Positions 3,019 through 22,585 of a stretch of 59,292 nucleotides of DNA are shown piece by piece. Numbering within the stretch: the stretch's first letter is position 1; each line of letters starts with the position of its first letter. Origin of the DNA: Xenococcaceae cyanobacterium MO_167.B27. Lineage in GTDB: Bacteria; Cyanobacteriota; Cyanobacteriia; Cyanobacteriales; Xenococcaceae. The translations under genes were made by a program, and so were the position numbers. The stretch spans positions 1 to 59,292 of the forward strand of contig JASJCP010000021.1 of NCBI GenBank assembly GCA_030065935.1, written 5' to 3'. The notes under the pieces were generated by a model. The model made no database searches. It saw only the letters and a program-made list of their open reading frames with translations, and was not told the origin of the DNA.

Positions 3019-4608
3019 ATGTTAGATTGCATTGTGATTGGAGCAGGACCCGGAGGTCTGGTTTGTACAAAAGAATTACTTGAGCAAGGTCTGCGCGAGG
3101 TTGTTTGTTTGGAACAAGCTAAGGATGTAGGAGGGGTTTTTGCTAATACTTATGACAGTTTAATATTGACTTCCTCTGCCACCATGAGTATGTTTTCGGA
3201 TTTTTGGATCGGCGATGGAAACCAGCACAAATTCTGGACTAAGAAAGAAGCAGTTGATTACTGGAAGAGGTACGCCAAACATTTTGGGGTTCTTGATCGC
3301 ATCCGTTTTAACTCTAAAGTAGTGGCTGTAGTTCCACAAGGCAGTGAAGGCTGGCAGGTTGAGCTAGCATCTGGAGAGACTTTGCTCTCAAAACGGATAG
3401 CACTGGCAATTGGTAACAACACTATTCCTAAGTATCCAGCTTGGAAGGAATTATTAACTGACGTTGAGTACTCCCATTCCAAAGACTACCGTAACGCTGA
3501 CAATATGTTAGGCAAGAACGTGTTAGTAGTCGGAGGAGGCGAGTCTGGTTCTGACGTAGCACTAGAAGCATCCCGCGTAGGGAACAATTGCTGGGTGAGC
3601 CTTCGTGAAACCACAGGCTGGGTAGCACCACGCAAAAGAGGTATATACGCTGCCGACATTTCAACCCATCGGGGCGTGTGGGGTCTTCCTCGCGATTATG
3701 GAGCAGCTTTAAGTGAAGCTATAGATGAAGCCGAGTTGAGCCAGAATGATCCAGTTCATGCTACGGCAGTCGAACTCAACAAAAAGATTAAGGCTCGAAA
3801 GCGTGTCTGGGGAATCTATGGAACTAAAACTTTCTCATTACCCAAAGCGATAGTGCATCACGGCTGTAAAGTTGTTGGTGAAATAGTGAAAGTGGAAGAT
3901 GGCGGAAGGACATTAATTACCGCAGATGGAGAAATTCTATCAGATATAGATCACATCGTCTTTTCTACCGGCTACAAAAACTATGTGCCTTTCCTTCCAG
4001 AGCAACTCAGGGAAACTGATCCCCGCAGTCTTTACAAACATATGTTCCATCCCAAGTATCGGGACAAAATAGTTTGGATTGGCTGGGCAAGACCTAGCTT
4101 CGGAAGCCAGTTTCCCATTATGGAAATGCAAGCGCGGTTGTTTGCGTCGATATGTACTGAAGAAAAAACCCTTCCTGAACCTGCACAAATGGAGAGAGTT
4201 ACCTGTGTAGATCGAGTTAATTACTTAGAGCAGTTCGAGCATAATGCTCACCGAGTCCGTAGCTTGGTGGATTATCATCGCTACATGGATGACATGGCTG
4301 GTTTGATAGGTTGCGAACCACCATTGTGGAAGTACTTTTTCTTACACCCCCGCATCTGGCTACGTATGGTATATGGTGCTACCCAGGCTACCCAGTTTCG
4401 ACTGCGAGGTCCTGGCAATAAGAAATCCTTGGCTCAAAAGCTGCTGATGAAACTACCTGTGAGTAAACCTACTCATATTGTCAAAGCTGGTCTAAAAGGG
4501 CGTTTGATTTATGCCTTCAAGTCTCTAATCCCCAAATTTGGCTTTTTTGGTCTTAAAGATGGTCAAAATTCCTCTTCTGTGGCAGTTTCTAGGGTTTCAT
4601 CTGTCTGA
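3019..4608 (+). CDS. FMO-like flavin-dependent monooxygenase/halogenase candidate (copy 1)
   Basis: This 529-residue flavoprotein has an N-terminal FAD Rossmann motif GAGPGG at residues 8-13, a second NADPH-type motif GGGESG at 172-177, and the FSTGYKN segment at 315-321 that corresponds to the conserved ATGY-like element of the family. The class-B FMO fingerprint FxGxxxHxxxY is only half kept: H153 and Y157 remain, but the F and G positions read T147 and V149. Ordinary FMOs oxygenate soft nucleophiles. The single-component phenol halogenases that decarboxylate 4-hydroxybenzoate (Bmp5 group) share this overall two-Rossmann plan, and the chorismate lyase in the same locus makes that reading attractive. 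The start is ATG with AAAGAGG upstream. The nearest relative is the copy at 6249, with which it shares its leader. Flavoprotein identity is firm; the reaction is inference. Confidence 0.75.
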   Translation: MLDCIVIGAGPGGLVCTKELLEQGLREVVCLEQAKDVGGVFANTYDSLILTSSATMSMFSDFWIGDGNQHKFWTKKEAVDYWKRYAKHFGVLDRIRFNSKVVAVVPQGSEGWQVELASGETLLSKRIALAIGNNTIPKYPAWKELLTDVEYSHSKDYRNADNMLGKNVLVVGGGESGSDVALEASRVGNNCWVSLRETTGWVAPRKRGIYAADISTHRGVWGLPRDYGAALSEAIDEAELSQNDPVHATAVELNKKIKARKRVWGIYGTKTFSLPKAIVHHGCKVVGEIVKVEDGGRTLITADGEILSDIDHIVFSTGYKNYVPFLPEQLRETDPRSLYKHMFHPKYRDKIVWIGWARPSFGSQFPIMEMQARLFASICTEEKTLPEPAQMERVTCVDRVNYLEQFEHNAHRVRSLVDYHRYMDDMAGLIGCEPPLWKYFFLHPRIWLRMVYGATQATQFRLRGPGNKKSLAQKLLMKLPVSKPTHIVKAGLKGRLIYAFKSLIPKFGFFGLKDGQNSSSVAVSRVSSV

Positions 4609-4682
4609 TTTTACCCACCTTATCTGTTGATAATCCTTTTTGTTTAGAATACCTGTTCCCTATTTAGCTCCCGAAAGTAGTT

Positions 4683-6155
4683 ATGGTTTTACAACAATCA
4701 GCCGACCTAAAGTTAAACATAAACAAGATTGCTCTTCCAGGACCGCCTCCACTACCTTTTGTCGATATGTTGCCTTTTTTCAGTAAGCACTTACATATAA
4801 AATTGTATCAACTCGGCAAAAAGTACGGTAATATCTTTCAGCTTTCCGTAAGTGGTAAAAAGTTAGTTGTATTAAATAAGCTTGAGACTGTCAAAGAAGC
4901 TTTATTAAAGCAGTCGGATAGCTTTAACGCTAGGGCAGATTTTGATGTCTTTCAGCAACCACCTCAACGTCACTTTCTGGAACTGAAGAGTGGTGAGAAC
5001 TGGAAAAAACACCATAGTATTGTAGGTAAAGCCATGCATACGTTTGTGGTGAAACAATCAGACAGTCTTGAAAGTTGGGCTGTTGAACAAGCAGAAGACT
5101 TGGCAAATACGCTCTTAAAATTTGGCAGCCAACCTGTTGACCCTGATTTATATGTACCTCTAGCCACCTCAAATTTTATCCAAAGACTAATCTTTAATAA
5201 AAAACTTAGTATTGAGGATGTCAAAAAGGATACTGTATTTACTGAATATGCGTATGGTTTAAGGTATATTCCCTGCGTTATCGAGGGGGTTAAATTAGAG
5301 TTTGTCCCAGGATTTTGGCAACTTATCTTCAAATTATCCCGTGCGACCATAGTACCGAAGTTTCTCAAAGGTTTAGCTGCACTGGAAAAGTATGTTTCCA
5401 AAAACGTAGAACAGCATCGAGAGTCCTTTGATCCAGAGAATTTGCAAGACGTTACCGATGGACTTTTACAAGCTAGTAGCGAACTAACTGAGTCAGATAG
5501 AAACGAGCTTGGGTTAGGCGACAATGACATTGTTAATGGATCATTGATGCAGTTTGCGGGAGCTGGTGGAGGACTTCCCAGTTTTATATTACGCTGGGGT
5601 TTGCTTTACATGATTACTCACCCAGATATTCAGACTCAAATCCAAAAAGAACTGGATGAAGTAGTTGGTAGAGAACAACAACCACGCTTAGAACATCGTG
5701 GTAAATTACCATTCATCGAAGCTTGTATTAACGAAATCTTGCGCCATTCTTCTCTTACTACTATGCCCCCCATCAACTACGCTACTAGTGCTGATACCAC
5801 TTTGGAGGGTTACTTTATTCCCAAAAATACTCCTTTAGTTATCAATTACTATGCTCTAACCCGTGATGAGCGCTATTGGGAAGAACCTGAAAAATTTAAC
5901 CCGTATCGGTTTTTAGATGAAAACGGCAAACTTAGAAATAACCTTGCTGATAAGTTTTATCCTTTTGGAATGGGATCCCGTAGGTGCATAGGAGAGTATT
6001 TAGGACGTTTGATGGTATTTATATTCTTCACTAACCTCATGCATAAATGCAAATTTGAAAAAGTTTCTGGAGAAAAATTGAGTTTTGAGTCTCCACTAGG
6101 AGGAGTTTTCGCAACTCCACAGGATTTTAAAGTTGTAGTAAAACCTCGCTTGTAG
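4683..6155 (+). CDS. cytochrome P450 with degenerate I-helix (eukaryote-like clan)
   Basis: This 490-residue P450 has a proline-rich N-terminal hinge (LPGPPPLPF), ExxR (EILR), a FNPYRF segment and the haem loop FGMGSRRCIG with the ligand at Cys435. Its overall style is that of microsomal CYP1/CYP2-clan enzymes rather than CYP110, but no membrane anchor is seen. In helix I the usual AGxD/ET reads A294-G-G-G297-L298, so both the acid and the alcohol used for O2 activation are missing. That is seen in P450s that rearrange peroxides or otherwise do not need the normal proton relay. In this locus a radical coupling or rearrangement step is a reasonable guess. It sits between the two FMO-like genes, 74 bases after the first, and is probably co-transcribed. 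Confidence 0.85.
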   Translation: MVLQQSADLKLNINKIALPGPPPLPFVDMLPFFSKHLHIKLYQLGKKYGNIFQLSVSGKKLVVLNKLETVKEALLKQSDSFNARADFDVFQQPPQRHFLELKSGENWKKHHSIVGKAMHTFVVKQSDSLESWAVEQAEDLANTLLKFGSQPVDPDLYVPLATSNFIQRLIFNKKLSIEDVKKDTVFTEYAYGLRYIPCVIEGVKLEFVPGFWQLIFKLSRATIVPKFLKGLAALEKYVSKNVEQHRESFDPENLQDVTDGLLQASSELTESDRNELGLGDNDIVNGSLMQFAGAGGGLPSFILRWGLLYMITHPDIQTQIQKELDEVVGREQQPRLEHRGKLPFIEACINEILRHSSLTTMPPINYATSADTTLEGYFIPKNTPLVINYYALTRDERYWEEPEKFNPYRFLDENGKLRNNLADKFYPFGMGSRRCIGEYLGRLMVFIFFTNLMHKCKFEKVSGEKLSFESPLGGVFATPQDFKVVVKPRL

Positions 6156-6248
6156 TTTCTAGGATTTGAATTTTGAGTAGGTGGCGAGATATCACTCAGT
6201 AGTAATTTATTAAGTAACTTACCAATAAAAATAAAGAGGTGAACTTTC

Positions 6249-7868
6249 ATGTTAGATTGCATTGTGATTGGGGCCGGACCTGGGGGTCTAGTTTGTACAA
6301 AAGAATTACTTGAGCAAGGTGTGCGCGAGGTTGTCTGTTTGGAACAAGCTTCTGATGTAGGAGGCGTTTTTGCCAATACTTACGACAATTTAGTGTTGAC
6401 TTCCTCTACTACGATCAGTATGTTTTCGGATTTCTGGATCGGCGATGGAAACCAGCACAAGTTCTGGACTAAGGACGAAGCAGTTGACTATTGGAAGAGG
6501 TACGCAAAACATTTTGGTGTTTTAGAACGCATCCGTTTCAACTCCAAAGTAGTGGCTGTGATTCCACAAGAGAGTGAAGGCTGGCAAGTTCAGCTAGCAT
6601 CTGGAGATACTTTGGTCTCAAAACGGGTCGCACTGGCTATTGGGAACAATGCTATCCCTAAATATCCAGCCTGGAAGGACTTATTAACTGAGGTTGAGTA
6701 TTTTCATTCAAAGGAGTACCGTAACGCTGACAAATTTGTAGGCAAAAATGTGTTGGCAGTTGGGGGAGGTGAGTCTGGCTCGGACGTAGCACTAGAAACA
6801 TCTCGCGTAGCTTCTAACTGCTGGGTGAGTCTTCGTGACACAGCAGGATGGCTGGCAGACCGCTGGAGAGGCAAAGAAGCTGCCGATGCTTTTGTAAATC
6901 GGGTGATATGGGGTATTCCTCGCAATTGGGGAGAATTTTTCAGCAAAGTTATCCATCGAGCCAGGTTGATAGATAAAGATCCAGCTAATAAGGATTTTAA
7001 TGCAGTTAATAAGATCGTAGTCGAACTCAACAAAAAGAATAAGGCTCGAAATGTCGTTTGGGGAAGCTTCGGAACTAAGACTTATTCATTACCCAAAGCA
7101 ATCGTGCGGCACGGCTGTAAAGTTGTTGGTGAAATAGTGAAGGTGGAAGATGGAGGAAAGACATTACATACAGCGGATGGAGAAACCCTGCGAAATGTCG
7201 ATGCCGTCGTCTTTTCTACTGGATACAAAAACCACGTGTCCTTCCTGCCAGAGGAACTTAAGGAAACTGACCCCCGCAGTCTTTACAAACATATGTTTCA
7301 TCCCAAGTATAGGGACAAATTAGTTTGGATTGGTTGGGCACGCCCTAACCTTGGGAGCCAGTTTCCCATTATGGAAATGCAGGCGCGTTTGTTTGCAATG
7401 ATCTGCACTGGGGAACGAAGCCTTCCTGCTCCCGCAGAAATGGAAAGAGTTACATGTGCAGATCGAGCTGCCTGGTTAGAACAGTTCGACCATAATGCTC
7501 ACCGAGTACGAAGCTTAGTGGATTATCGTATCTATCTGGATGATATCGCTAGTGTGATTGGGTGCGAGCCTCCACTGTGGAAGTACCTTTTCTTGCACCC
7601 CCGCCTCTGGAGGCACATAGTATTCGGTGGTACTCAGGCTACCCAGTTCCGACTGCAAGGTCCTGGCAATAAGGAATCCTTGGCTCAAGAGATACTGCTT
7701 AAAATACCTCCACACAGTTTAGCTGCTCCTGTCTTCAAAGCTCTTGTAATAAGTATTGTAGTAGAGCCTTTAAATTATATATTCAAGGCTCTACTGCCTG
7801 ACACAAGTGCCTTAAAGCCTTCCAAGTTGAAAAAGCAATCTCCTATGACCAGTAATCAAAATGTTTGA
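6249..7868 (+). CDS. FMO-like flavin-dependent monooxygenase/halogenase candidate (copy 2)
   Basis: This 539-residue paralogue of the protein at 3019 is near-identical over the first ~180 residues and over most of the C-terminal half. It keeps GAGPGG, GGGESG and the STGYKN segment. It shows the same altered FMO fingerprint (T/V in place of F/G before the HxxxY). The stretch of about residues 200-265 differs strongly and is longer by several residues (ending ...VVELNKKN), as do the last ~50 residues. The ~40 bases before both start codons are also conserved (AAGTAACTTA...AATAAAGAGGT). The duplication therefore included the translation signal, and divergence is focused on what is probably a substrate-facing segment. 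It is likely a second flavin-dependent tailoring enzyme acting on a related substrate. Confidence 0.75.
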   Translation: MLDCIVIGAGPGGLVCTKELLEQGVREVVCLEQASDVGGVFANTYDNLVLTSSTTISMFSDFWIGDGNQHKFWTKDEAVDYWKRYAKHFGVLERIRFNSKVVAVIPQESEGWQVQLASGDTLVSKRVALAIGNNAIPKYPAWKDLLTEVEYFHSKEYRNADKFVGKNVLAVGGGESGSDVALETSRVASNCWVSLRDTAGWLADRWRGKEAADAFVNRVIWGIPRNWGEFFSKVIHRARLIDKDPANKDFNAVNKIVVELNKKNKARNVVWGSFGTKTYSLPKAIVRHGCKVVGEIVKVEDGGKTLHTADGETLRNVDAVVFSTGYKNHVSFLPEELKETDPRSLYKHMFHPKYRDKLVWIGWARPNLGSQFPIMEMQARLFAMICTGERSLPAPAEMERVTCADRAAWLEQFDHNAHRVRSLVDYRIYLDDIASVIGCEPPLWKYLFLHPRLWRHIVFGGTQATQFRLQGPGNKESLAQEILLKIPPHSLAAPVFKALVISIVVEPLNYIFKALLPDTSALKPSKLKKQSPMTSNQNV

Positions 7869-8124
7869 AGATGTAAGTCCTACATCCTCAGTCGGTGACA
7901 TTCAGGTGGCTCTTGCACCATAGATGCGTCTCCATCACGACATTGGGGTTCTCATTGCGCTTACCCTAATTCTTCAGCTGGTAAGCGTGGTTTTCTAAGA
8001 AGCACAAAACAAGAGATTGTTGGTTCACAAGAACTGATTTGTCTTACCGAAAACTCCATAACTAAATCATTATTCATTTTCTCGAATAGAACCAAATCAA
8101 AGCTTGACAAGGAGTTAGAACATC
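7869..8124. other. spacer with a possible transporter remnant
   Basis: Within the spacer, 7924-7998 (+) reads MRLHHDIGVLIALTLILQLV and stops soon after. It looks faintly like the last transmembrane helix of an RND/MMPL-type exporter. It is too short to be sure. There is no other gene here. Confidence 0.25.
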
Positions 8125-9507
8125 ATGAGTAAAACTCTACCAAAGTTAAAACAACATCCACTACAGCAAGGATTTACATGGATTGCTGAACCTATAAAAT
8201 ATATGGAGACAGCTGTTAAAGATTATCCCGATCTGTTCTTAGCAAACGTCGTTGGGGAAGGTGGTCCAATAGTTTTTGTCCACCATCCTGAAGGTGTCCA
8301 AAAAATCTTAACAGGTGATGGTTTTATCGCTACAGGAAAAAGCCATCTTCTACGACCAATATTAGGCAATAATTCTATATTAGGACTAGAAGGCGATCGC
8401 CACGTAAAGCGTCGTAAGTTACTCCTACCCCCTTTTCACGGAGAGAGGATGAAAGCTTATGGTCAGTTGATTTGCGATCTGACGAGGCAAATTTTTGAGC
8501 AATTTACCCCCAATCAAGTTTTTACAGCAAGAACAGCATGTCAAGATATCTCTATGCAAGTCATCTTAGAAGCTGTGTATGGCTTAAACGACCGCTCTCA
8601 AAAATTGCGCCAATTAGTTTCTGAAATAGCTGAAATCTTTCAATCTCCTCTCAATGTCTCTCTTCTATTTATTGAATGGTTACAAAAAGATCTAGGTCCT
8701 TGGAGTCCTTGGGGTCGTTTTCTCCGACAACGAGAAGCAGTCGATAGTGCGATTTACAAAGAAATAGAAGTGAGGAAGGCTAATCCTGATGTTTCCCGTG
8801 AAGATATCCTGTCTCTATTAATCTCTGCTAAAGATGAAGCAGGAAATTCTCTGACTTTACCTGAACTACGAGATGAGTTGATGGCTCTGACATTTGCAGG
8901 GCATGAAACTACTGCCATTTCTATGTCTTGGGCTTTGTATTGGATTCATCACTTACCAGAAGTTAAGAGAAAATTACTCGCAGAAATCGCTACCTTAGGA
9001 AAATCTCCTGACCCTGTGGAGATCGCAAAATTGCCCTATCTCAATGCAGTGTGTAAAGAAGCTCTCCGTATTTATCCTGTAGGAATGTTAACTTTACCGA
9101 GAGTAGTGCAGAAAAAAACAGAAGTATTAGGGTATGAACTAGAACCAGGACAGTTAGTAGCAGGATGTATTTATCTGTTGCATCAAAGGGAAGATATTTA
9201 TCCTGATGCCAAACTGTTTAAACCAGAACGCTTTTTAAAGCGTCAGTTTTCTCCCTACGAATTTATTCCCTTTGGTGGTGGTCAGCGTGCCTGTGTTGGT
9301 CAGGCTTTAGCCCAATTTGAAATGAAACTTGCGATCGCCACAATTTTGACTAATTATGACCTCGCCCTAGCAGACAATAAACCTGAATTACCCAAACGTG
9401 GAGGTGCTCGCCTAGCTCCAGCTAGAGGAGTCCAGATGGTTTTTAACGGAAAAAGAAATAAGTCGGGCTTGCTGAAAAATTCGACTTTGGAGCAATTAGT
9501 TGCTTAA
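8125..9507 (+). CDS. cytochrome P450, CYP110-like
   Basis: This 460-residue P450 is of the kind common in cyanobacteria (CYP110 family by overall look: PFHGERMKAYG and the R-rich region before it). The oxygen-binding helix is canonical, A258-G-H-E261-T262-T263. The ExxR is EALR, and the haem loop is PFGGGQRACVG with ligand Cys390. It starts at ATG with AAGGAG upstream. CYP110 members hydroxylate fatty acids, alkanes and terpenes or couple phenols, so the substrate cannot be read from sequence. It contrasts with the other P450 of the locus, whose helix I is degraded. A P450 remnant follows directly downstream, suggesting that a third copy once lay here. Confidence 0.88.
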   Translation: MSKTLPKLKQHPLQQGFTWIAEPIKYMETAVKDYPDLFLANVVGEGGPIVFVHHPEGVQKILTGDGFIATGKSHLLRPILGNNSILGLEGDRHVKRRKLLLPPFHGERMKAYGQLICDLTRQIFEQFTPNQVFTARTACQDISMQVILEAVYGLNDRSQKLRQLVSEIAEIFQSPLNVSLLFIEWLQKDLGPWSPWGRFLRQREAVDSAIYKEIEVRKANPDVSREDILSLLISAKDEAGNSLTLPELRDELMALTFAGHETTAISMSWALYWIHHLPEVKRKLLAEIATLGKSPDPVEIAKLPYLNAVCKEALRIYPVGMLTLPRVVQKKTEVLGYELEPGQLVAGCIYLLHQREDIYPDAKLFKPERFLKRQFSPYEFIPFGGGQRACVGQALAQFEMKLAIATILTNYDLALADNKPELPKRGGARLAPARGVQMVFNGKRNKSGLLKNSTLEQLVA

Positions 9508-9539
9508 GTTAGTTCTGTTGCGACAAACAAGGTCAGCCA

Positions 9540-9710: not shown

Positions 9711-9752
9711 AACTCTCGTTCATAGCTCATTTAGGATTACTATCAATCTCTC

Positions 9753-9886: not shown

Positions 9887-10495
9887 ATGTCTATCAATTA
9901 TACGGAAGCTTTTATCCCCCACAAAAAAGACCAGACCATCAGAGGTAATTTACAACCATCTACCCATTCCAAAACAAGAAATAATTTAAATGGGTTTCAG
10001 AGGATGTTAATGAAAGCTAATGGCACCGTTACAGCTATGTTAGAAGCTTACTTATCTGAGCCAATTCAAGTAGTTAAACTCTCAGAAAATATAGCCACAA
10101 TGAAACTTGAATTTCCCAACATTAAATTGAATTCAGAAGAGCAAGTTATTGCCAGAAAAGTCCTCCTTCAAGGAAAGATGAGCGGTGGTAATTTTATCTA
10201 TGCTGATTCGCTTATCCTGATTAATAACCTAGATGAACGATTTAGAAATCAATTACTGAACACCAATATACCAATTGGTAAGCTCTGGACAGAGCACAAA
10301 GTTGAAACTTTCAAAGAAATCATAGAATCTGGCATAGAGCCAGCCAATGAATTGTCAAATTATTTCTGTATTGATCCCAAGGAAAATTTACTTTTCCGTA
10401 CCTATTCTGTGTCCTCTCAAGGAAAAATCAACATGATTATTACTGAAAAGTTTCCTGAGAGTTATTTTTCGCCACAAGTTACATTAGCGTCTTAA
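9887..10495 (+). CDS. chorismate lyase, DUF98/UbiC-like
   Basis: This 202-residue protein resembles the DUF98 chorismate pyruvate-lyases (as in mycobacterial phenolic glycolipid synthesis and cyanobacterial quinone synthesis). It has the N-terminal block FQRMLMKANGTVTAMLEAYL, the strand ARKVLLQGK followed by FIYADSLI, the PIGKLWTEHKVETFKEI block and the C-terminal MIITEKFP with the expected glutamate. The reaction is chorismate to 4-hydroxybenzoate plus pyruvate. It has a clear ribosome site (AAAGGAGA). The first ~30 residues are not conserved and are probably disordered. This gene links the shikimate genes of the locus to a phenol product. The genome presumably carries another copy for plastoquinone, which cannot be checked here. 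Confidence 0.8.
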   Translation: MSINYTEAFIPHKKDQTIRGNLQPSTHSKTRNNLNGFQRMLMKANGTVTAMLEAYLSEPIQVVKLSENIATMKLEFPNIKLNSEEQVIARKVLLQGKMSGGNFIYADSLILINNLDERFRNQLLNTNIPIGKLWTEHKVETFKEIIESGIEPANELSNYFCIDPKENLLFRTYSVSSQGKINMIITEKFPESYFSPQVTLAS

Positions 10496-10899: not shown

Positions 10900-11991
10900 A
10901 TGTTCAACCAAAAATCAGCTCTAAAGACAAAAAAACGCAACATAAACAGCCAGAGCCAATTTATCTCCAAATTTTTCAAACTTGCTGCTAGGAATGTGTT
11001 TTCTCAACACTTTATTGGCATCAGCATACTAGTTGCTGTCACTGTCTGGATTGTCTGGTTGACTCTAATTGGTCCTACCCGCGCTCTTTCTAATCTGATT
11101 GTTAACTGGGAGGCTGCCGTAACTATGATTTTTGGTTCTATGGTAGCAGGGGGTACGAGCATGGGTGGGGGAGCAGTTGCTTTTCCAGTTTTCACCAAGG
11201 TGCTGCACGTTCCGCCAACCGAGGCAAAGGTATTTTCTCTAGCCATTCAAAGTATCGGGATGAGTGCAGCGTCATTGACCATTGTGGCAATGAAAACCAA
11301 GGTAGAGTGGCGGTTCATCCGTTGGGCAAGTCTTGGAGGTGTTCCTGGCATTATCTTAGGTTCAGTCTTTTTAGCCCCAGTTTTGCCCCCAGATTTAATC
11401 AAGTTTTCTTTCACGATGATGACCTGTAGTTTTGCTATGGTTCTGTTCGCTTTAAATCGCACAAGAAGAAATCCGCATTTAGCTATCCCTTCTTGGGGGA
11501 AAAGAGAACGAGTTTTCTCTCTAATAGCAGGACTTTGGGGAGGAATCGTTAGCGGTTTAGTAGGCAGTGGTATGGATATTATTGGTTTTTCCATAATGGT
11601 GTTACTGTTTGGCTTGTGCGAAAAGGTAAGCACTCCGACCTCCGTTATTTTGATGGCTATCAATGCTGTGGTTGGTTTTATCCTTCATCAATACTTTATT
11701 GGTGACTTTGTCGAGCCTATAACTAATTATTGGCTAGCAGCAGTACCAGTAGTTGTAGTTGGTGCCCCAACAGGTGCTATATTGTGCAATTTGATGAAAC
11801 GAAAAACCATTAGCAGGATGCTTATTGGTCTAATCTTAAACGAGTCAGTTAGTTCTTTTTTCCTTATTCCTTTAACTGCCAAGCTCCTCTGTTATTCTCT
11901 CGTCGTATTTGCCATCTTCTTATCAATTTATTACTGGATGTACAAAAGCCGAATCTATGTCGCTCCCAGTTTTATTCGTGAAAGATACTGA
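10900..11991 (+). CDS. TauE/SafE-family membrane permease
   Basis: This 363-residue polytopic membrane protein (about eight or nine hydrophobic segments) begins with a basic cytoplasmic tail of ~35 residues. The internally duplicated glycine-rich motif of TauE/SafE proteins is visible (GSMVAGGTSMGGGAVAFP near residue 80, and GLWGGIVSGLVGSGMDIIG near 215). The family moves sulfite, sulfonates, sulfolactate and related anions across the inner membrane. With the sulfotransferase 1.6 kb downstream, either sulfur anion supply or removal of a sulfated product is possible; the sequence cannot decide. Its last 37 codons are repeated downstream (12076-12186). Confidence 0.75.
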   Translation: MFNQKSALKTKKRNINSQSQFISKFFKLAARNVFSQHFIGISILVAVTVWIVWLTLIGPTRALSNLIVNWEAAVTMIFGSMVAGGTSMGGGAVAFPVFTKVLHVPPTEAKVFSLAIQSIGMSAASLTIVAMKTKVEWRFIRWASLGGVPGIILGSVFLAPVLPPDLIKFSFTMMTCSFAMVLFALNRTRRNPHLAIPSWGKRERVFSLIAGLWGGIVSGLVGSGMDIIGFSIMVLLFGLCEKVSTPTSVILMAINAVVGFILHQYFIGDFVEPITNYWLAAVPVVVVGAPTGAILCNLMKRKTISRMLIGLILNESVSSFFLIPLTAKLLCYSLVVFAIFLSIYYWMYKSRIYVAPSFIRERY

Positions 11992-12055: not shown

Positions 12056-12075
12056 AGAAAATTCCTTTAAATGCC

Positions 12076-12248: not shown

Positions 12249-13346
12249 ATGATTGTAGTAATGAAAACTGATACCCCTAACTTAGAAATTCAACGAATTA
12301 TCCAAGAATTACAAAGTGAAAGTATTACACCCGAAAAAATTGTCGGTAAACACAAAGTCATAATTGGTTTAGTAGGAGATACTGCCGGTCTCAATCCTCA
12401 GCACCTTCAACAACTAAGTCCTTTTATTGAAAAGGTGATGCGAGTTGATAAGCCTTTTAAAAGAGCTAGTTTAGAATTTCGTCATGGAGAACCCACAGAA
12501 GTCTCTGTCCCTACTCCCAATGGAGTTGTGGTTTTCGGTCAAAATCATCCTATCGTTACTGTAGCTGGTCCCTGTTCTGTAGAAAATGAAGAAATGATCG
12601 TTGAGACAGCTCGGCGAGTGAAGGCAGCAGGAGCTCAGTTGTTGCGAGGTGGAGCTTATAAGCCTAGAACTTCTCCCTATTCTTTCCAAGGACATGGTGA
12701 GAGTGCTTTAGGTTTGCTAGCTAAAGCTCGCGAGGTTACAGGCTTGGGTATCGTCACTGAACTAATGGATCCAGCCGATCTAGCTAAAGTTGCGGAGGTA
12801 GCTGACATAATCCAAATTGGGGCTCGTAATATGCAGAATTTCTCACTTTTGAAACAATTAGGAGCAATTAATAAGCCAATTTTACTCAAACGAGGAATGG
12901 CAGCCACCATTGAAGATTGGCTGATGTCTGCGGAGTACATTTTGGCAGCAGGGAACCCAAATGTGATTTTGTGCGAGCGAGGAATTCGCACCTTTGACCG
13001 TAAGTATACCCGTAATACTCTCGATCTTTCTGCTGTTCCCGTCCTGCGAACTCTCACTCACTTACCCATTATGGTCGATCCTAGCCATGGTACAGGAAAA
13101 GCAGAGTATGTCCCAACGATGGCTAAAGCTGCGATCGTGGCTGGAGCAGATTCTCTAATGATTGAGGTTCACCCCAATCCAACCAAGGCTCTCTCAGATG
13201 GACCACAGTCTCTAACACTAGAAGGATTCGACCAGTTAATGCAGCAGATGGCTCTTATTGGTCAAGCTGTTGGTCGTTGGTCGAAAAAATTTTCGATATC
13301 GACAGCCACCCCTGCTTCACAGAAACCTCTAACTGCCAAAGCTTAG
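12249..13346 (+). CDS. aroF: DAHP synthase (AroF/AroA-I-beta type, with N-terminal ferredoxin-like domain)
   Basis: 3-Deoxy-7-phosphoheptulonate synthase condenses PEP and erythrose-4-phosphate, the first shikimate step. The 365 residues comprise an N-terminal ferredoxin-like regulatory domain (~1-85) and the TIM barrel. Barrel motifs seen are AGPCSVE, LRGGAYKPRTSPYSFQG, LLKRGM, ILCERGIRTF and PIMVDPSHGTGK, which carry the expected PEP/E4P and metal ligands. The start at 12249 follows an AAGGAGG site. Type I-beta enzymes with this extra domain are feedback-inhibited by tyrosine or phenylalanine in other bacteria; whether this copy is released from control cannot be read from sequence. It lies between the permease and the sulfotransferase, apart from the aroA-B group. 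Confidence 0.92.
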   Translation: MIVVMKTDTPNLEIQRIIQELQSESITPEKIVGKHKVIIGLVGDTAGLNPQHLQQLSPFIEKVMRVDKPFKRASLEFRHGEPTEVSVPTPNGVVVFGQNHPIVTVAGPCSVENEEMIVETARRVKAAGAQLLRGGAYKPRTSPYSFQGHGESALGLLAKAREVTGLGIVTELMDPADLAKVAEVADIIQIGARNMQNFSLLKQLGAINKPILLKRGMAATIEDWLMSAEYILAAGNPNVILCERGIRTFDRKYTRNTLDLSAVPVLRTLTHLPIMVDPSHGTGKAEYVPTMAKAAIVAGADSLMIEVHPNPTKALSDGPQSLTLEGFDQLMQQMALIGQAVGRWSKKFSISTATPASQKPLTAKA

Positions 13347-13598: not shown

Positions 13599-14573
13599 AT
13601 GAAAAACGTAGTAGAATCCAACATCAAAAAAATGGCGTTTCAAGTTGCCAGAAACACTTTTTTTAAAGAATATCCAGAGCATTTTAAAGATTTATGTGAA
13701 CGAGCACTGAATACCTCTAAAACTAAGGAAATACCTTTCCTTCACTCCAAGGTAAACGGGTTGATCTTGCCACCTTATATGACAGAAGAACAAGTGAGGA
13801 TTTATACTACATTCCAAACTCGTCCTGGAGATGTTTTTTTGGTCACTTATCCCAAGTCAGGAACCACATGGCTCGCAGAAATCATCCGTTGCATTGCTCA
13901 GCCAAAAGAATCCGACAAGGAAAATCTTATTGGTGGTCCAGTACCTACGTTTGATATGGCTACTCAAGAGCAACTAGAAGCTGTACCCTCCCCACGCTAT
14001 ATGTCTACCCATTTACCATTTTCTCTATTGCCGCGCAGCAGCGAACATGAAGTGAAGTATATCTATCTTGCTCGCAATCCAAAAGATGTGGCTGTTTCTT
14101 ACTTTCACTTCAGCTCGATGCCATTTCTCAACTTTGACGGCACATGGGAAGAATTTCTACAATATTTCATGAAGGGAAATATTCCTGGAGGTTCATACTT
14201 TGACCATGTTTTGGAATGGTGGTCGCACCAGGATGATGAAAATATTCTTTTTCTCAAGTATGAAGATCTCAAAAAAGATCTTAAAAGTCAGGTCAAAATT
14301 ATCGCCGAATTCCTTGGCTTCAAATTCTCAGATGAGGAGGCAAAAGCTGTGGTAAAACAATGTACCTTCCAAGCCATGAAGTCAAATTCCAATCAAGACA
14401 TTAGTAAATTCGTGGATAAATTATTTAAAAAAGGTTCGCACTTGCGCAAGGGAATTGTAGGCGACTGGAAAAACCATTTCTCGGATGAGCAATTAGAAGA
14501 ATTCGATAAATTGTACCAATCCCGCCTGAATGGAACTGGTCTTAAGTTTGAATTTCAATCTGTAGCTGAATAG
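13599..14573 (+). CDS. PAPS-dependent sulfotransferase, cytosolic SULT type
   Basis: This 324-residue protein transfers sulfate from PAPS to a hydroxyl or amine. The 5'-phosphosulfate loop TYPKSGTTW lies at residues 83-91, the catalytic histidine is H138 (STHLPFSLLP), the 3'-phosphate site is LARNPKDVAVSYFHF with R159 and S167, and the C-terminal RKGIVGDWKNHF loop lies near 286. The overall plan is that of animal-type phenol/alcohol sulfotransferases rather than carbohydrate or PKS-fused ones. About 40 extra N-terminal residues precede the fold. With a chorismate lyase in the locus, a phenolic acceptor is the simplest guess. It has its own ~250-base upstream gap. Confidence 0.88.
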   Translation: MKNVVESNIKKMAFQVARNTFFKEYPEHFKDLCERALNTSKTKEIPFLHSKVNGLILPPYMTEEQVRIYTTFQTRPGDVFLVTYPKSGTTWLAEIIRCIAQPKESDKENLIGGPVPTFDMATQEQLEAVPSPRYMSTHLPFSLLPRSSEHEVKYIYLARNPKDVAVSYFHFSSMPFLNFDGTWEEFLQYFMKGNIPGGSYFDHVLEWWSHQDDENILFLKYEDLKKDLKSQVKIIAEFLGFKFSDEEAKAVVKQCTFQAMKSNSNQDISKFVDKLFKKGSHLRKGIVGDWKNHFSDEQLEEFDKLYQSRLNGTGLKFEFQSVAE

Positions 14574-15064: not shown

Positions 15065-17515
15065 ATGTACACTCAAATCGCCAACCTTTATACCAAACCC
15101 GCTAATGCTAATGTCTACACTCGTTCTTTGACAAGCCTTAGCCTCAAAGACCTCCCTCTTGTCGGAGGAAAAAATGCTTCTTTAGGGGAAATGATGCAGG
15201 CTCTTAAACAAGAAGGAATTGGGATCCCCAATGGTTTTGCCATCACAGTAGATGCCTATCGAGATTACCTCAAAGCCAATAACTTGACTGAAAAAATTAA
15301 GTTCTATCTCACAGACCTAGAAAAGGGCAATATTTCCCTGGAACAAGCGGGAACAGTCATACGCAGACTCTTCTATCAGTCTTCCCTCCCAGAGACAATT
15401 CAAGCGGAAATTACCAATGCCTATACCGAATTATGTCGCTTGTATAACACCGAAAAAGTTGACGTTGCGGTCAGAAGTAGTGCTACTGCAGAAGATTTAC
15501 CCGATGCCAGTTTTGCTGGTCAACAGGAATCTTATCTTAATGTTAGCGGTATTGCAGAAGTTCTCGAAGCTTGTCGCAAGTGCTATGCTTCTCTATTTAC
15601 AGACCGCGCTATTAGCTATCGTAATACCCAAGGCTTTGACCATCTCGAAGTAAGCCTCTCCATCGGGATTCAGAAGATGGTACGGTCTGACTTAGCTAGT
15701 GCAGGGGTAATGTTTTCTATCGATCCAGAAACTGGATTCAATAACATTATTTTGATTACAGGTGCGTGGGGATTGGGGGAAAATGTAGTTCAAGGCACTG
15801 TCAACCCAGATGAATTCCGTGTCTTTAAACCTTTGTTAAATCAACCATCACTGCAACCTATTGTCGAGAAAACCCCTGGTTCCAAGGAAAAAAAGCTGAT
15901 TTATGCCCAAGGAACAAATCAACAGACTCGTCAGGTGGAAACCTCTCCTGCTGAACGCCAATCTTTAATTCTGAGAGATTCGGAAATTCTGCAATTGGCA
16001 CAATGGGCAAAACGCATTGAATCTCATTACGGTAGACCAATGGATATTGAGTGGGCAAAAGATGGTACTACAGGAGAGTTATTTATTGTCCAAGCTAGAC
16101 CAGAAACTGTCCAGTCTCGCCAGGGAGTAGGAATTCTCAAAACCTATGCACTCAAGCAGTCTAATAAACCAATATTAACTGGATTGAGTGTCGGAGCAGC
16201 GATCGCAACAGGTAAGATTTGTTTAATTGAAAGTGCCGAACAGATTGACCAATTTGAAGATGGGGCAATCTTAGTTACAAAAATGACTGACCCTGACTGG
16301 GTTCCTGTAATGAAACGAGCAGCAGGTATTGTTACCGATTCTGGAGGACGCACCTGTCATGCTGCTATTATCAGTCGTGAATTAGGAATTCCCGCAGTTG
16401 TCGGGACGCTCCGAGCAACCCAATTATTGCAACAGCATCAGGAGATTACCATTTCTTGTGCGGAAGGAGATAGAGGACACATTTATAATGGCATTTTAGA
16501 ATACGAGCAATCAGAAGTCAGTTTAGAGGGCATCCCAGAAACTAAGACTCGTATCATGATGAATATTGCCAGTCCTGCAACAGCTTTTAAATGGTGGAAG
16601 TTACCAGTTAATGGTATTGGTTTAGCGCGGATGGAATTTATCATTAATAACCTGATTAAGATTCATCCTCTCGCCTTAATTCATTTCGAGCAGCTAAAAG
16701 ATCGAGAAGCCAAGCAGCAAATTCGTGCTATAACCCAGGGATATAAAGATAAAAAAGCCTATTTTGTAGATTTGTTGGCGCAGGGAATTGCCAAGATTGC
16801 TGCTTCTCAGTATCCTGAACCAGTAATTGTCAGGATGAGTGATTTTAAAACTAATGAATATGCGGATTTAATTGGGGGAAGACAATTCGAGCCATCGGAA
16901 GCCAACCCAATGCTAGGATTTCGCGGTGCTTCTCGTTATTACAGTCCTCGTTATCGGGAAGGATTTGCTCTAGAGTGCCAAGCAATTAAGCGGGTACGGG
17001 AGGTAATTGGTTTGGATAATGTGATTATTATGATTCCCTTCTGTCGTCGCTTGCAGGAAGCCGATCGAGTGTTGGAAGTTTTGGCGGAAAATGGACTAAC
17101 ACGGGGAGAAAATGGCTTACAAGTTTATGTCATGTGCGAAGTTCCCTCCAATGTGGAGTTAGCAGCCGAATTTTCTCAACGGTTTGATGGTTTTTCCATC
17201 GGTACTAATGACTTGACCCAGTTAGTGTTAGGCATAGACCGAGATTCTGAAGAGTTGGCAGAATTATTTGACGAGCGGGATTTAGCAGTCAAGCGGATGA
17301 TTCGTCGCCTAATTAAAACGGCTCATGAGCAAGGTCGTAAAGTGGGCATTTGTGGTCAAGCTCCTTCCGATCATCCCGATTTTGCCACTTTTTTGGTGGA
17401 AGCAGGAATTGACTCAATTTCCCTGAATCCTGATAGTGCGATCGCAGTCAAACAGCAAGTAGCGCAGACGGAAGCGAAGCTAGAGAACAGGCTGATTCCA
17501 CGTCGGGCTGCGTGA
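15065..17515 (+). CDS. ppsA: phosphoenolpyruvate synthase
   Basis: PEP synthase (pyruvate, water dikinase) makes PEP from pyruvate and ATP. The 816 residues show the ATP-grasp domain (LVGGKNASLGEM, VAVRSSATAEDLPDASFAGQ), the phospho-carrier domain with GGRTCHAAIISREL, where H432 is the phosphorylated histidine, and the C-terminal PEP barrel with the catalytic Cys763 (GICGQAPSD). Its length fits the family, and no active-site residue I can check is missing. Here it fits as a PEP feeder: two PEP are used per chorismate, and the chorismate lyase upstream returns one pyruvate. It begins at ATG without an obvious ribosome site. Confidence 0.92.
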   Translation: MYTQIANLYTKPANANVYTRSLTSLSLKDLPLVGGKNASLGEMMQALKQEGIGIPNGFAITVDAYRDYLKANNLTEKIKFYLTDLEKGNISLEQAGTVIRRLFYQSSLPETIQAEITNAYTELCRLYNTEKVDVAVRSSATAEDLPDASFAGQQESYLNVSGIAEVLEACRKCYASLFTDRAISYRNTQGFDHLEVSLSIGIQKMVRSDLASAGVMFSIDPETGFNNIILITGAWGLGENVVQGTVNPDEFRVFKPLLNQPSLQPIVEKTPGSKEKKLIYAQGTNQQTRQVETSPAERQSLILRDSEILQLAQWAKRIESHYGRPMDIEWAKDGTTGELFIVQARPETVQSRQGVGILKTYALKQSNKPILTGLSVGAAIATGKICLIESAEQIDQFEDGAILVTKMTDPDWVPVMKRAAGIVTDSGGRTCHAAIISRELGIPAVVGTLRATQLLQQHQEITISCAEGDRGHIYNGILEYEQSEVSLEGIPETKTRIMMNIASPATAFKWWKLPVNGIGLARMEFIINNLIKIHPLALIHFEQLKDREAKQQIRAITQGYKDKKAYFVDLLAQGIAKIAASQYPEPVIVRMSDFKTNEYADLIGGRQFEPSEANPMLGFRGASRYYSPRYREGFALECQAIKRVREVIGLDNVIIMIPFCRRLQEADRVLEVLAENGLTRGENGLQVYVMCEVPSNVELAAEFSQRFDGFSIGTNDLTQLVLGIDRDSEELAELFDERDLAVKRMIRRLIKTAHEQGRKVGICGQAPSDHPDFATFLVEAGIDSISLNPDSAIAVKQQVAQTEAKLENRLIPRRAA

Positions 17516-18033: not shown

Positions 18034-19203
18034 ATGATATTCAAAGTCTTAAAAAATAGAACTCCTTTGGGTTGGCTACAACTCAAGCACGATAAGATGC
18101 GCTTGCTAACTGCACTATCAGGAATTGCTTTTGCAGATATTCTAATCTTTATGCAGTTAGGATTTAAAGATGCTCTTTATACAACTAATACTCAGTATCC
18201 TCGACAAATTCAGGGAGATATTGTTGTTCTCAGTAGTCAAGCAACTAATTTTAATAAACTATCTACTTTTCCGCGACGACGACTTTATCAGGCGATGGAT
18301 ATTCCTGGAGTGAAATCGGCAGAAGCTGTTTATCTTGGTTCTTTAGATTGGCGCAATCCTCAAACTAGAAAGAAAACCTCGATGATGGTAATTGGATTCG
18401 ATCCAGATCGACCCGTTTTCGATCTACCAGAAGTTAACCGTCAATTAGATAAAGTCAAGATACCTAATACGGTTTTATTAGATCAAGCATCCAGGGGAGA
18501 ATATCAAGAAGTTATTTCCCAAATCCAACAGGGTAAAACTTTAACCACAGAAATCGACAGAAACACAGTTACTATTACTGGTTTATTTCAAGTAGGTGCT
18601 TCTTTCCAAGATGATGGTGCATTAATTACCAGTGCTCAAAATTTTTTGCAGTTGTTTCCTAGAAGACAAGTAGGAACAGTTAGTTTAGGAGTAATTAACC
18701 TAAAAGACGGGTACAATCTTGAAGATGTGAGAACTTATTTAAACGCCTATCTGCCCCAAGACATTCGTGCTTTTACTTATCAAGAATATGTAGAGTTTGA
18801 GCTTAATTATATCCAAACTAGTTCAGCGATTGGCTTTATTTTTGGTCTGGGTACTGCCGTAGGTTTGATTGTCGGCATTGTAATTGTTTATCAAGTGCTT
18901 TCTACCGATGTCAACGATCATATGGCAGAATATGCCACATTTAAAGCGATGGGCTACCGAAACTTCTATTTACTTGGTGTGGTGTTTGAAGAAGCGATTA
19001 TCTTAGCTTTTATCGGATTTGTTCCTAGTGTAGCGATCGCTTCAGGACTATATCGCTTAACGGCAATAGCGACAGCTTTACCCTTAGTCATGCCAGTATC
19101 TAGAGTCATTTTAGTACTGATCTTAACCATTATGATGTGTACTGTTTCAGGTGCGATCGCCACCCGCAAACTTCACTCAGCCGATCCAGCAGATATTTTC
19201 TAA
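18034..19203 (+). CDS. devC: DevC-type ABC exporter permease
   Basis: The 389-residue DevC/FtsX-like permease has an N-terminal helix after a short amphipathic start (RTPLGWLQL), a large periplasmic domain at about residues 50-260, and three C-terminal helices (from IGFIFGLGTAVGLIVGIVIV on). In heterocyst-forming and other cyanobacteria DevBCA-type pumps export glycolipids or other products with an outer-membrane TolC. Its neighbours are the shortened devB and the intact devA (16 bases after the stop). The position between ppsA and aroA, on the same strand, suggests product export for the locus. Confidence 0.85.
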   Translation: MIFKVLKNRTPLGWLQLKHDKMRLLTALSGIAFADILIFMQLGFKDALYTTNTQYPRQIQGDIVVLSSQATNFNKLSTFPRRRLYQAMDIPGVKSAEAVYLGSLDWRNPQTRKKTSMMVIGFDPDRPVFDLPEVNRQLDKVKIPNTVLLDQASRGEYQEVISQIQQGKTLTTEIDRNTVTITGLFQVGASFQDDGALITSAQNFLQLFPRRQVGTVSLGVINLKDGYNLEDVRTYLNAYLPQDIRAFTYQEYVEFELNYIQTSSAIGFIFGLGTAVGLIVGIVIVYQVLSTDVNDHMAEYATFKAMGYRNFYLLGVVFEEAIILAFIGFVPSVAIASGLYRLTAIATALPLVMPVSRVILVLILTIMMCTVSGAIATRKLHSADPADIF

Positions 19204-19219
19204 ACAGGACAGAGTTATC

Positions 19220-19936
19220 ATGCAAAATTCTACTAACCAAAAACCAGTTATCTCTATCCACTATCTCAACCACTATTTTGGTCAAGGACAACTCCGCAAA
19301 CAAGTGTTATTTGATATTAATTTAGAAATTGCTGCTGGCGAGATTGTAATTATGACTGGTCCTTCAGGTTCTGGTAAAACTACTCTACTCACTTTAGTAA
19401 GCGGTTTGCGTTCGACCCAGTCAGGTAGTATGAGAATACTCGGACAAGAACTCTGTGGAGCAACGAATGAACAGTTAATACAAGCCAGACGACACAACGG
19501 TTACATTTTTCAAGCTCATAATCTGCACAGAAGCTTAACCGCCTTACAAAACGTGCAAATGGGTTTAGAAGTACAAAGTAAATTTTCTCGCCCAGAAATG
19601 GAGGAATGCGCTACTGCAATGCTAGAACAAGTAGGTTTGGGCAATCGCCTTAATTACTATCCCGAAAATCTTTCTGGCGGACAAAAACAAAGAGTCGCCA
19701 TCGCTCGTGCTTTAGTCTCCCATCCTGCTATCGTCTTAGCTGATGAACCTACCGCCGCCTTAGACAGTAAATCTGGTCGAGATGTCGTTAATTTGATGCA
19801 AAAACTAGCCAAGGAACAGAAAAGCACAATTCTCTTGGTTACTCACGACAATCGCATTTTAGACATTGCCGATCGCATTGTACATATGGAAGACGGAAAA
19901 CTGGTGAATAACTCGACCATGAGTATGGCAGCATGA
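19220..19936 (+). CDS. devA: DevA-type ABC exporter ATPase
   Basis: This 238-residue ATPase has Walker A GPSGSGKTTLL (residues 47-57), signature LSGGQKQRVAIA, Walker B IVLADEPTAALD and the H-loop VTHD, as in LolD/MacB/DevA ATPases. I start it at ATG 19220, in the expected position 16 bases after devC. An in-frame ATG at 19151 would overlap devC by 53 bases and add residues without similarity. It powers the DevC permease at the inner face of the membrane. Confidence 0.88.
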   Translation: MQNSTNQKPVISIHYLNHYFGQGQLRKQVLFDINLEIAAGEIVIMTGPSGSGKTTLLTLVSGLRSTQSGSMRILGQELCGATNEQLIQARRHNGYIFQAHNLHRSLTALQNVQMGLEVQSKFSRPEMEECATAMLEQVGLGNRLNYYPENLSGGQKQRVAIARALVSHPAIVLADEPTAALDSKSGRDVVNLMQKLAKEQKSTILLVTHDNRILDIADRIVHMEDGKLVNNSTMSMAA

Positions 19937-20029: not shown

Positions 20030-21379
20030 ATGCTCAACCCAACTATCAATCCAATCGAGTCTAATAATCAAATTGACTTAACTATTCAACCTGCTGCTTC
20101 AGGACTCTGTTTACGAGGTTCGCTTTCAATCCCAGGAGATAAATCCATATCTCACCGCGCCTTAATGTTAGGTGCATTAGCCCAAGGAGAAACGAAGATT
20201 CAGGGACTATTACTAGGAGAAGATGTAATTAGCACAGCTAACTGTTTGCGATCGCTTGGTGGAGAAATTTCCGATCTCACCGCCCCAGAAATTTTAGTAA
20301 AAGGACAAGGTTTAGGACAATTTCAAGAACCCTTAGATGTGCTGAATGCTGGTAACTCTGGTACTACCATGCGGTTGATGTTAGGAATTTTAGCAGCGAG
20401 AGATAACCACTTCTTTACTTTAACAGGCGATCGCTCTTTGCGTTCTCGTCCGATGTCTCGCGTAGTCAAGCCCTTAACTCAAATGGGTGCAGAAATTTGG
20501 GGAAGACAAAATAACAATTTAGCTCCTTTGGCGATTAAAGGCAAAAAATTACGCCCAATTCACTATGATTCTCCTGTAGCTTCGGCTCAAGTCAAGTCTT
20601 GTATTCTCTTAGCTGGATTAATGAGTGAAGGACAAACTACGGTAACAGAACCAGCAAAATCAAGAGATCATAGCGAAAGAATGCTGAAAGCCTTTGGCGC
20701 AGATATCCATACTGACTCCGAAACCAATAGCGTTACTATCACTGGTGGTAATACCTTGCAAGGACAATCAGTAATTGTACCAGGGGATATTAGTTCAGCA
20801 TCCTTTTGGTTAGTAGCTGGTTCTGTCGTACCAGATTCGGAACTAAAACTAAAAGATGTAGGTATTAACCCCACAAGATCGGGAATTTTAGATGTTTTAA
20901 ACCTGATGGGAGCAAATATTACCATTGAAAAGGAAAGAATTGTTGCAGGAGAACCCATTGCTGATTTGTGGGTTCGCTCTAGTCGCCTTGAAGGATGCGA
21001 AATTGCTGGAGAACTAACCCTGCGTTGTATTGATGAAATTCCGATTATTGTCGTAGCAGCAGCCTTGGCGAAAGGAACAACTATCATCAAAGATGCAGCT
21101 GAACTAAGAATTAAAGAATGCGATCGCTTGTCGGTAATGGCTACTCAACTAAGTCGTATGGGTGCAAAAATTACTGAACATCCCGATGGCTTAGAAATTC
21201 AAGGGGGACATCCTTTATCTGGTGCAGAAGTAGCAAGTCACTCAGATCATCGCATTGCCATGAGTTTAGCAGTAGCAGCTTTACGAGCTTCAGGAAAAAC
21301 CACAATCGAAGAAGCAACAGCCTCCAATATTTCTTACCCTAACTTTTTTGACAGTCTTCAACAGGTTTGTTGTTGGTGA
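20030..21379 (+). CDS. aroA: EPSP synthase (3-phosphoshikimate 1-carboxyvinyltransferase)
   Basis: EPSP synthase joins PEP and shikimate-3-phosphate. The 449 residues show [49 protein letters not shown], the IDEIPII segment with the catalytic acid, and the C-terminal [14 protein letters not shown]. The RPMxRVxxPLxxMG pattern is that of class II-like enzymes common in cyanobacteria. It is the first of four consecutive shikimate genes (aroA, aroC, aroK, aroB). Such grouping is unusual in cyanobacteria, where these genes are generally scattered, so this set may be an additional pathway-specific one. Confidence 0.95.
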
Positions 21380-22514: not shown

Positions 22515-22585
22515 TTTTCTCATTAGATGCGTTATTTGTAGCAAATATGAGCGCAATTTGAGATAAGTTGAGAGAAATTTTGTTT

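Follow-up and report, generated by a model that had tools for sequence, protein, structure and literature searches.

Two flavoproteins of a Xenococcaceae cyanobacterium are probable single-component halogenases of a bmp-type cluster with a candidate chorismate supply of its own

Contig JASJCP010000021.1 of Xenococcaceae cyanobacterium MO_167.B27, which was analyzed over its whole 59,292 nucleotides and is called the window here (contig C125 of a 7.0 Mb genome, 98.55% complete), encodes two flavoproteins that resemble flavin-containing monooxygenases (FMOs) and that we term FMOa and FMOb. We hold it highly probable that both are NADPH-dependent single-component flavin halogenases belonging to a bmp-type gene cluster with its own chorismate supply. 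The direct observations comprise gene content and order, homology, residue conservation, purifying selection and duplicate shikimate genes. A sequence-only reading of the window had assigned the two proteins to the Bmp5 group of single-component phenol halogenases, in a locus with a chorismate lyase; collinearity with a Hormoscilla cluster (72-86% identity for the oxidative enzymes, 51% for the chorismate lyase), a tree, an aligned lysine and the neighboring genes support this assignment. The halogenase conclusion thus stands, and its reasoning is corrected, because the fingerprint change to which it appealed marks a clade and not halogenases.

The five genes from FMOa to the chorismate lyase recur in Hormoscilla GUM202 (RFFC02000007; our loci L037/L052) in the same order and orientation, as a flavoprotein (78% identity), a P450 (86%), a second flavoprotein (72%), a second P450 (79%) and a chorismate lyase (51%). 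The GUM202 cluster, hs_bmp, has been published as a maker of polybrominated diphenyl ethers (PMC6520454). In the expanded hs_bmp cluster, the brominase Bmp5, the chorismate lyase Bmp6 and the coupling P450 Bmp7 form the core, and a variable region between bmp6 and bmp7 holds hs_bmp12, a hydroxylase, and hs_bmp18, a second putative halogenase whose substrate the authors suspect to be a dihydroxylated diphenyl ether; the host sponge contained ten brominated diphenyl ethers, the majority penta- and hexabrominated (PMC6520454). The window holds counterparts of all three core genes together (FMOa, the chorismate lyase and a P450 that we term P450a) and, as in L037/L052, FMOb followed by a second P450, P450b, between P450a and the chorismate lyase. 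P450a, which lies between the two flavoproteins, goes unmentioned in the sequence-only reading.

The two clusters also differ. GUM202 carries, beyond the five-gene set seen here, a truncated flavoprotein piece and a sulfotransferase-family open reading frame (ORF) matching PF17784. Truncated extra flavoprotein pieces, remnants of second copies, lie between the two P450 genes of both GUM202 (L037 6813-7346) and Hormoscilla SP12CHS1 (L035 4516-4830). Past the chorismate lyase, the Hormoscilla loci continue with a TetR gene (scanned in L037) and HlyD, FtsX and ABC genes, of which the FtsX and ABC genes are 64% and 74% alike to the window genes starting at 18034 and 19151, the ATPase having been seen in L035 only. 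The window carries a TauE gene and six chorismate-supply genes; in the Hormoscilla stretches examined, a profile search detected neither TauE nor DAHP synthase. Cluster versions with TauE and DAHP synthase downstream occur in Xenococcaceae MO_188.B29, to whose family, and not to Hormoscilla, the present host belongs, as well as in Pleurocapsa and Symploca.

Both flavoprotein ORFs are open and complete (529 and 539 amino acids), are 73% identical to each other and match the FMO-like family PF00743 (E 6.7e-54 for FMOa and 5.6e-53 for FMOb). As the sequence-only reading had noted, each keeps two Rossmann motifs, with GxGxxG at residues 8-13 (GAGPGG) and 172-177 (GGGESG), and fold matches over residues 1-480 agree with a class B fold in which the FAD and NADP motifs share one chain. 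Neither protein matches PF04820 (Trp_halogenase) at E 1e-3, on which ground a two-component flavin halogenase was rejected; among the matches listed, no NCBIfam model scored over its cut-off for either protein.

Where ordinary FMOs and N- and S-oxygenases carry the fingerprint FxGxxxHxxxY, both proteins read T147-x-V149-x-x-x-H153-x-x-x-Y157, just as first described. We compared these positions across 64 aligned clade members and 16 rows from outside the clade (14 ORFs plus two ancestral FMOs). Within the clade, position 147 is Thr in 45 members, Ser in eight and another residue in 11, and position 149 is Val in 42, Ile in 21 and Pro in one; H153 is kept in 64/64 and Y157 in 62/64. All 16 non-clade rows have Phe and Gly at the fingerprint positions. 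Since F147 and G149 are absent from every clade member (0/64 each) while H153 and Y157 are almost fully kept, the change is not a matter of chance. The Bmp5-type enzymes of four Microbulbifer-like loci, however, retain FxGxxxHxxxY, which indicates that TxVxxxHxxxY is the mark of one clade rather than of halogenases. Fingerprint loss was consequently rejected as a halogenase mark, and the earlier argument that the altered signature speaks against ordinary FMO function proves unsound.

Two other positions bear on function. In the tryptophan halogenase AetF, Lys258 is essential; Bmp5 has an equivalent Lys277, and ancestral FMOs are without it (PMC10306068). The residue aligned with this lysine is K270 in FMOa, K277 in FMOb and K279-286 in the four Microbulbifer-like rows. 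Lysine occupies the position in 64/64 clade rows and in 13 of the 14 other ORFs, the sole exception being a Pseudosulfitobacter FMO, whereas the two ancestral FMOs have Val or Leu. The active-site Asn of FMOs stabilizes the hydroperoxyflavin. The ancestral FMOs have this Asn where FMOa has T51, and Thr replaces it in all 63 clade rows that have a letter there and in the same 13 of the 14 other ORFs.

The sequence-only reading had named a tree and a structure model as checks. In a 66-row tree, FMOa, FMOb and the cluster enzymes of Hormoscilla, Symploca, Pleurocapsa and Xenococcaceae form one clade of nine rows (SH-aLRT 99; support 100/100 in a 16-row tree), nested in a 50-row clade (SH-aLRT 100) that contains neither the ancestral FMOs nor the Microbulbifer-like enzymes; the deep branching order of the 66-row tree is unsure, as its branches are long. 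Both proteins therefore group with the Hormoscilla Bmp5 gene, part of the hs_bmp cluster of published function (PMC6520454), to the exclusion of FMOs. The predicted FMOa model (mean pLDDT 74.4, pTM 0.77) matches AetF, a single-component halogenase, over its whole length (Z 24.2, 464 residues, 4.5 Å), behind ancestral FMOs, and the predicted fold fits a class B enzyme; taken alone, it does not separate a halogenase from an oxygenase.

Several observations weigh against the halogenase assignment. The best fold match of the FMOa model is ancestral FMO5 (Z 33.9, 459 residues, 29% identity), and both window proteins are ~30% identical to the Microbulbifer-like Bmp5-type enzymes, the same level as to FMOs. 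The correspondence with hs_bmp genes was judged by position and identity, not against the published sequences, and K270 was equated with Bmp5 Lys277 through a sequence alignment that does not contain the Pseudoalteromonas Bmp5. Many clade members elsewhere lie beside genes resembling non-ribosomal peptide synthetases (NRPSs) or have no recognized partner, and the family may halogenate other substrates also. The proteins could on such grounds be ordinary class B monooxygenases (N- or S-oxygenases, or Baeyer-Villiger enzymes) that tailor a phenolic product, a reading with which their PF00743 membership agrees, as does the rank of ancestral FMO5 and FMO2 as top sequence and fold matches. Against it stand Thr in place of the FMO Asn and Lys at the position typical of the halogenases, neither of which varies within the clade; nearest relatives that are Hormoscilla enzymes inside a matching cluster; and a gene neighborhood that points to neither an amine nor a sulfide as substrate. 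From the residues, the tree and synteny we rejected an ordinary FMO or Baeyer-Villiger monooxygenase as very improbable, though ancestral FMOs head the results of both the sequence and the fold searches.

The two flavoproteins are fresh representatives of an already known enzyme type. Bmp5/BP608 of gammaproteobacteria (Pseudoalteromonas, Marinomonas, Microbulbifer) is likewise a single-component class B flavin enzyme with a lysine in the aligned place. The four Microbulbifer-like loci have a chorismate lyase and TauE nearby in 4/4 cases and a P450 in 3/4, and a DAHP synthase and an AraC-type activator were confirmed by Pfam in the two scanned (L122, L125); they resemble the 4-BP cluster, which comprises a helix-turn-helix activator, a DAHP synthase, a flavoprotein, a chorismate lyase and a P450 (PMC10579414). 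Their flavoproteins differ from those of the window in identity and in the retained signature, as given above. AetF has its catalytic lysine in the same region as K270 of FMOa (PMC10306068) and differs in identity (15%), in its tryptophan substrate and in its greater length. For MiuG, the miuraenamide tyrosine brominase and likewise a flavin halogenase, the closest match in MIBiG is Bmp5 (PMC10051162); by its description, MiuG differs in its length of 621 amino acids and in halogenating tyrosine for an NRPS.

The earlier label of decarboxylative halogenase suits the two flavoproteins unequally: it is likely for FMOa, in the role of Bmp5, and too simple for FMOb, which, being Bmp18-like, more likely acts in a later step on an already coupled or hydroxylated ring. 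In the free tree FMOb pairs with the second Xenococcaceae copy and GUM202 Bmp18 falls with Hormoscilla Bmp5, so that FMOb and Bmp18 may stem from separate duplications; under an approximately unbiased test, a single clade of FMOb, its partner and Bmp18 is not rejected (p 0.198). FMOb might instead be a redundant or decaying copy. Its branch is longer (0.25 versus 0.046), its ratio of non-synonymous to synonymous change (dN/dS) against the Xenococcaceae counterpart is ~0.28 (dN 0.146, dS 0.522) as compared with ~0.11 for FMOa (dN 0.048, dS 0.419), FMOb has NRV in place of an HRG triplet located ~50 residues ahead of the lysine, and remnants of such copies exist in Hormoscilla loci. Both genes are nevertheless under purifying selection, FMOb being the less constrained; FMOb is intact at 539 amino acids with K277 and both Rossmann motifs, and a second copy with the same NR pair is found also in Xenococcaceae MO_188.B29 and in GUM202. 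Decay thus appears improbable, and we favor a second-step halogenase.

Each catalytic step of the pathway that we propose is inferred from homologues. Phosphoenolpyruvate synthase, DAHP synthase, dehydroquinate synthase, shikimate kinase, EPSP synthase and chorismate synthase would raise the flux to chorismate, from which chorismate lyase would form 4-hydroxybenzoate. In FMOa, NADPH would reduce the enzyme's own FAD, and the resulting flavin hydroperoxide would oxidize bromide (or chloride) to a hypohalous acid held by K270; 4-hydroxybenzoate would then be halogenated with loss of CO2 to yield a 2,4-dihalophenol. P450a would join two halophenols into a diphenyl ether (or a biphenyl), P450b would hydroxylate the coupled product, and FMOb would place further halogen on the coupled or hydroxylated ring. 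Sulfation of the phenol by the sulfotransferase and export of the product through the ABC genes are possible additions, and the TauE-type protein may move anions, whether halide inward or product outward.

The likely products are hydroxylated, perhaps sulfated, polyhalogenated diphenyl ethers. The same enzymes might alternatively make chlorinated, ambigol-like coupled phenols or halogenated biphenyls, given that sequence reveals neither the halide nor the mode of coupling: in the wording of PMC10579414, the halogenase of the ambigol pathway is a homologue of BP608, and Microbulbifer RZ01 makes a brominated biphenyl through a chorismate lyase, a Bmp5-type enzyme and a P450 (PMC10579414). We regard such a product as unlikely, though less so than decay of FMOb, in view of the identity of P450a and P450b to the Hormoscilla P450s (86% and 79%) and of a glucosylglycerol-phosphate synthase in the genome (over cut-off, 761 bits), which is expected of a salt-water organism and so suggests that bromide is at hand.

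Table 1. Genes of the cluster and its downstream region in the window, with predicted roles (Hormoscilla loci: L035, L037; other loci: L030, L031, L042)
Feature	Coordinates	Strand	Evidence
FMOa, probable Bmp5-type single-component flavin halogenase (hs_bmp5 counterpart)	3019..4608	+	PF00743; 78% to Hormoscilla GUM202 copy; clade with Hormoscilla Bmp5; K270, T51
P450a, putative phenol-coupling cytochrome P450 (hs_bmp7 counterpart), between FMOa and FMOb	4683..6155	+	PF00067; 86% to GUM202 and SP12CHS1 P450
FMOb, probable second single-component halogenase (hs_bmp18 position)	6249..7868	+	PF00743; 73% to FMOa; 72% to GUM202 second copy; K277
P450b, cytochrome P450, putative hydroxylase (hs_bmp12 counterpart)	8125..9507	+	PF00067; 79% to same-position Hormoscilla P450
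Chorismate lyase (hs_bmp6 counterpart)	9887..10495	+	PF01947, E 6.3e-16; 51% to Hormoscilla, 75% to Xenococcaceae MO_188.B29
TauE/SafE-family transporter, group recurring beside flavin halogenases	10900..11991	+	PF01925; neighbors
DAHP synthase	12249..13346	+	NF009933 over cut-off; present too in L030, L031, L042
Cytosolic phenol-type sulfotransferase, possible tailoring enzyme	13599..14573	+	PF00685; best PDB matches SULT1C2, SULT1B1, E ~1e-59
Phosphoenolpyruvate synthase	15065..17515	+	NF005057 and TIGR01418 over cut-off; present too in L031, L042
ABC exporter permease, presumably DevC-like	18034..19203	+	PF02687; 64% to gene after Hormoscilla chorismate lyase (L035, L037)
ABC exporter ATPase	19151..19936	+	PF00005; 74% to next Hormoscilla gene in L035
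EPSP synthase	20030..21379	+	PF00275, E 3.4e-133
Chorismate synthase, one of two in genome	21426..22514	+	PF01264, E 2.8e-142; second copy on C72
Shikimate kinase	22568..23122	+	PF01202, E 6.4e-44
3-Dehydroquinate synthase	23182..24267	+	PF01761 and PF24621; nearly equal-scoring copy on C58

From FMOa through dehydroquinate synthase (3019-24267), all genes lie on the + strand, and the next two, for a pentapeptide-repeat protein and a sensor-type protein, lie on the opposite one. Besides the chorismate lyase, this run holds six chorismate-supply enzymes, DAHP synthase and phosphoenolpyruvate synthase included. Because second copies are present on contigs C72 and C58, the window chorismate synthase and dehydroquinate synthase are extra copies; weaker members of the dehydroquinate synthase family were found on C43 and C31, and neither dehydroquinate dehydratase nor shikimate dehydrogenase was among the ORFs scanned. 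The six genes, at least two of them duplicated elsewhere in the genome, make up a candidate private shikimate route that would feed the halogenases. In Pleurocapsa (L031) and Symploca (L042), too, DAHP synthase and phosphoenolpyruvate synthase come after the cluster; the stretches available there end soon afterwards and showed none of the other shikimate genes. From partial sources and with no dedicated search made, we have the impression that these extra shikimate genes are a novelty among clusters of this type.

The window sulfotransferase is closest to human-type phenol sulfotransferases, and the one in the GUM202 cluster (L037 4630-5262) belongs to a different family, PF17784 as opposed to PF00685; the presence of both suggests, at the level of gene content, that products may be sulfated. 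Other sulfotransferase genes adjoin the flavoprotein in Moorena (L036) and, as a partial gene, in L032.

The TauE gene of the window provides a further, more tentative proposal, namely that its group may serve flavin-dependent halogenation in general, most simply as a bromide or chloride importer that supplies the cytosolic halogenase, or else as an exporter of acidic halophenols. Genes of this group adjoin two unrelated types of enzyme, single-component FMO-type halogenases and PF04820-type flavin enzymes; a sulfur-metabolism reading of TauE, sulfotransferase and FMO was set aside because of the latter. With the window TauE as query, 51 places were found in 42/388 genomes of the order, and a halogenase-type ORF lies within 6 kb in 21/48 loci examined. 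In the closest group (at least 66% identity) this holds for 10/11, the eleventh being on a 5.5 kb contig with a chorismate lyase and a P450; leaving out the four loci first reached via the flavoprotein, it holds for 6/7, all six with PF04820 (one only at E 1e-8). As a control, other TauE genes were taken from five genomes of this order (12 loci) and from other bacteria (eight loci), with flanks of ~6 kb, several cut by contig ends; one of these 20 loci has a halogenase-type ORF (L251, PF04820 at 76 bits). A control with flanks of only 1.5 kb, in which neighbors are cut, gave 0/28. The difference between 21/48 and 1/20 (Fisher p 0.0015) persists without the six loci first reached via the flavoprotein (15/42 versus 1/20, p 0.012), the loci not being independent of kinship. 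Counting against the link, 27/48 loci have no halogenase-type ORF within 6 kb, some of them on short contigs, and PF04820 membership does not prove halogenation; strict halogenase specificity of TauE was rejected on the former count. Among the papers searched, none joins "sulfite exporter" and "halogenase". Elsewhere in the same genome (L159 on C51, 1094-4009), a PF04820-type flavin enzyme, a candidate two-component halogenase, stands beside a TauE 67% identical to that of the window.

A strong match to the flavoproteins (E 1e-60 or better) occurs in 4/27 genomes of the family and 18/388 of the order sample, which indicates an accessory gene. Scanning of named genomes gave 61 loci, which in cyanobacteria include Hormoscilla sponge symbionts, Xenococcaceae MO_188.B29, Pleurocapsa MO_192.B19, Symploca, Moorena, Crocosphaera and others, and which extend to Bacteroidota, Rhodobacteraceae, some gammaproteobacteria and one member of the Acidimicrobiales. 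Within 6 kb of the flavoprotein in 74 distinct loci (93 less 19 duplicates), there is a chorismate lyase in 25, a TauE in 17 and a related P450 in nine. Alcanivorax DG881, Rhodobacteraceae KLH11 and a Thiotrichaceae metagenome-assembled genome share the order chorismate lyase, flavoprotein, TauE, with a TauE of a distant kind (17-20% identical to that of the window). Viral contigs contain no relatives of the flavoproteins, and plasmid records contain six distant matches, two of them inspected, and one chorismate lyase match, in Halorussus.

Several family loci suggest other chemistries. By eye, the flavoprotein adjoins NRPS-like genes in L008, L033 and L047; in L008 (12536-14047, genome G270, a cyanobacterium of the same class), a 56% identical flavoprotein between large NRPS-like genes is a possible peptide halogenase. 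Within the present genome, a second FMO-like gene with the halogenase-type Thr and Lys residues is found in L010 (C229:7000-26000). Its cluster (4337-17119), a candidate halogenated alkylresorcinol pathway, also includes TauE, two sulfotransferase-like genes, a type III PKS next to a large polyketide synthase (PKS)-like gene in the list of its contents, a PF01494 monooxygenase and an ICMT-family methyltransferase. Two gammaproteobacterial loci (L119, L120), in which two FMO-type genes flank an aromatic amino acid lyase (Pfam-scanned in L119) and a TauE gene is also present, are likely coumarate-fed halogenation clusters, to judge from their genes. In several Flavobacteriaceae, an ORF of 172-178 amino acids directly precedes the flavoprotein (L094 7481-7999, L067 7475-8008, L068 7468-8004); it has no Pfam match in the two scanned (L094, L067) and was not counted as a chorismate lyase, and perhaps is a divergent one.

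Brominated diphenyl ethers of natural origin are similar to synthetic flame retardants; the cyanobacteria that make them have been identified as Hormoscilla, symbionts living in sponges, which could not be brought into culture (PMC6520454). The cyanobacterial genera named as having the three genes in tandem are Hormoscilla, Symploca, Nodularia and Leptolyngbya (PMC10579414), and a literature search, over sources seen in part, found no report of such a cluster in Xenococcaceae or Pleurocapsa. With the T51/K270 pair, the many genes labelled "FMO" can be screened in a simple way for single-component halogenases. A pathway equipped with additional copies of most chorismate-route genes would represent a natural high-flux design, of use in heterologous production. 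If the transporter link holds, it would explain the passage of halide or product across the membrane during flavin halogenation. The relatives in Xenococcaceae, Pleurocapsa and Symploca indicate that the cluster is not confined to Hormoscilla.

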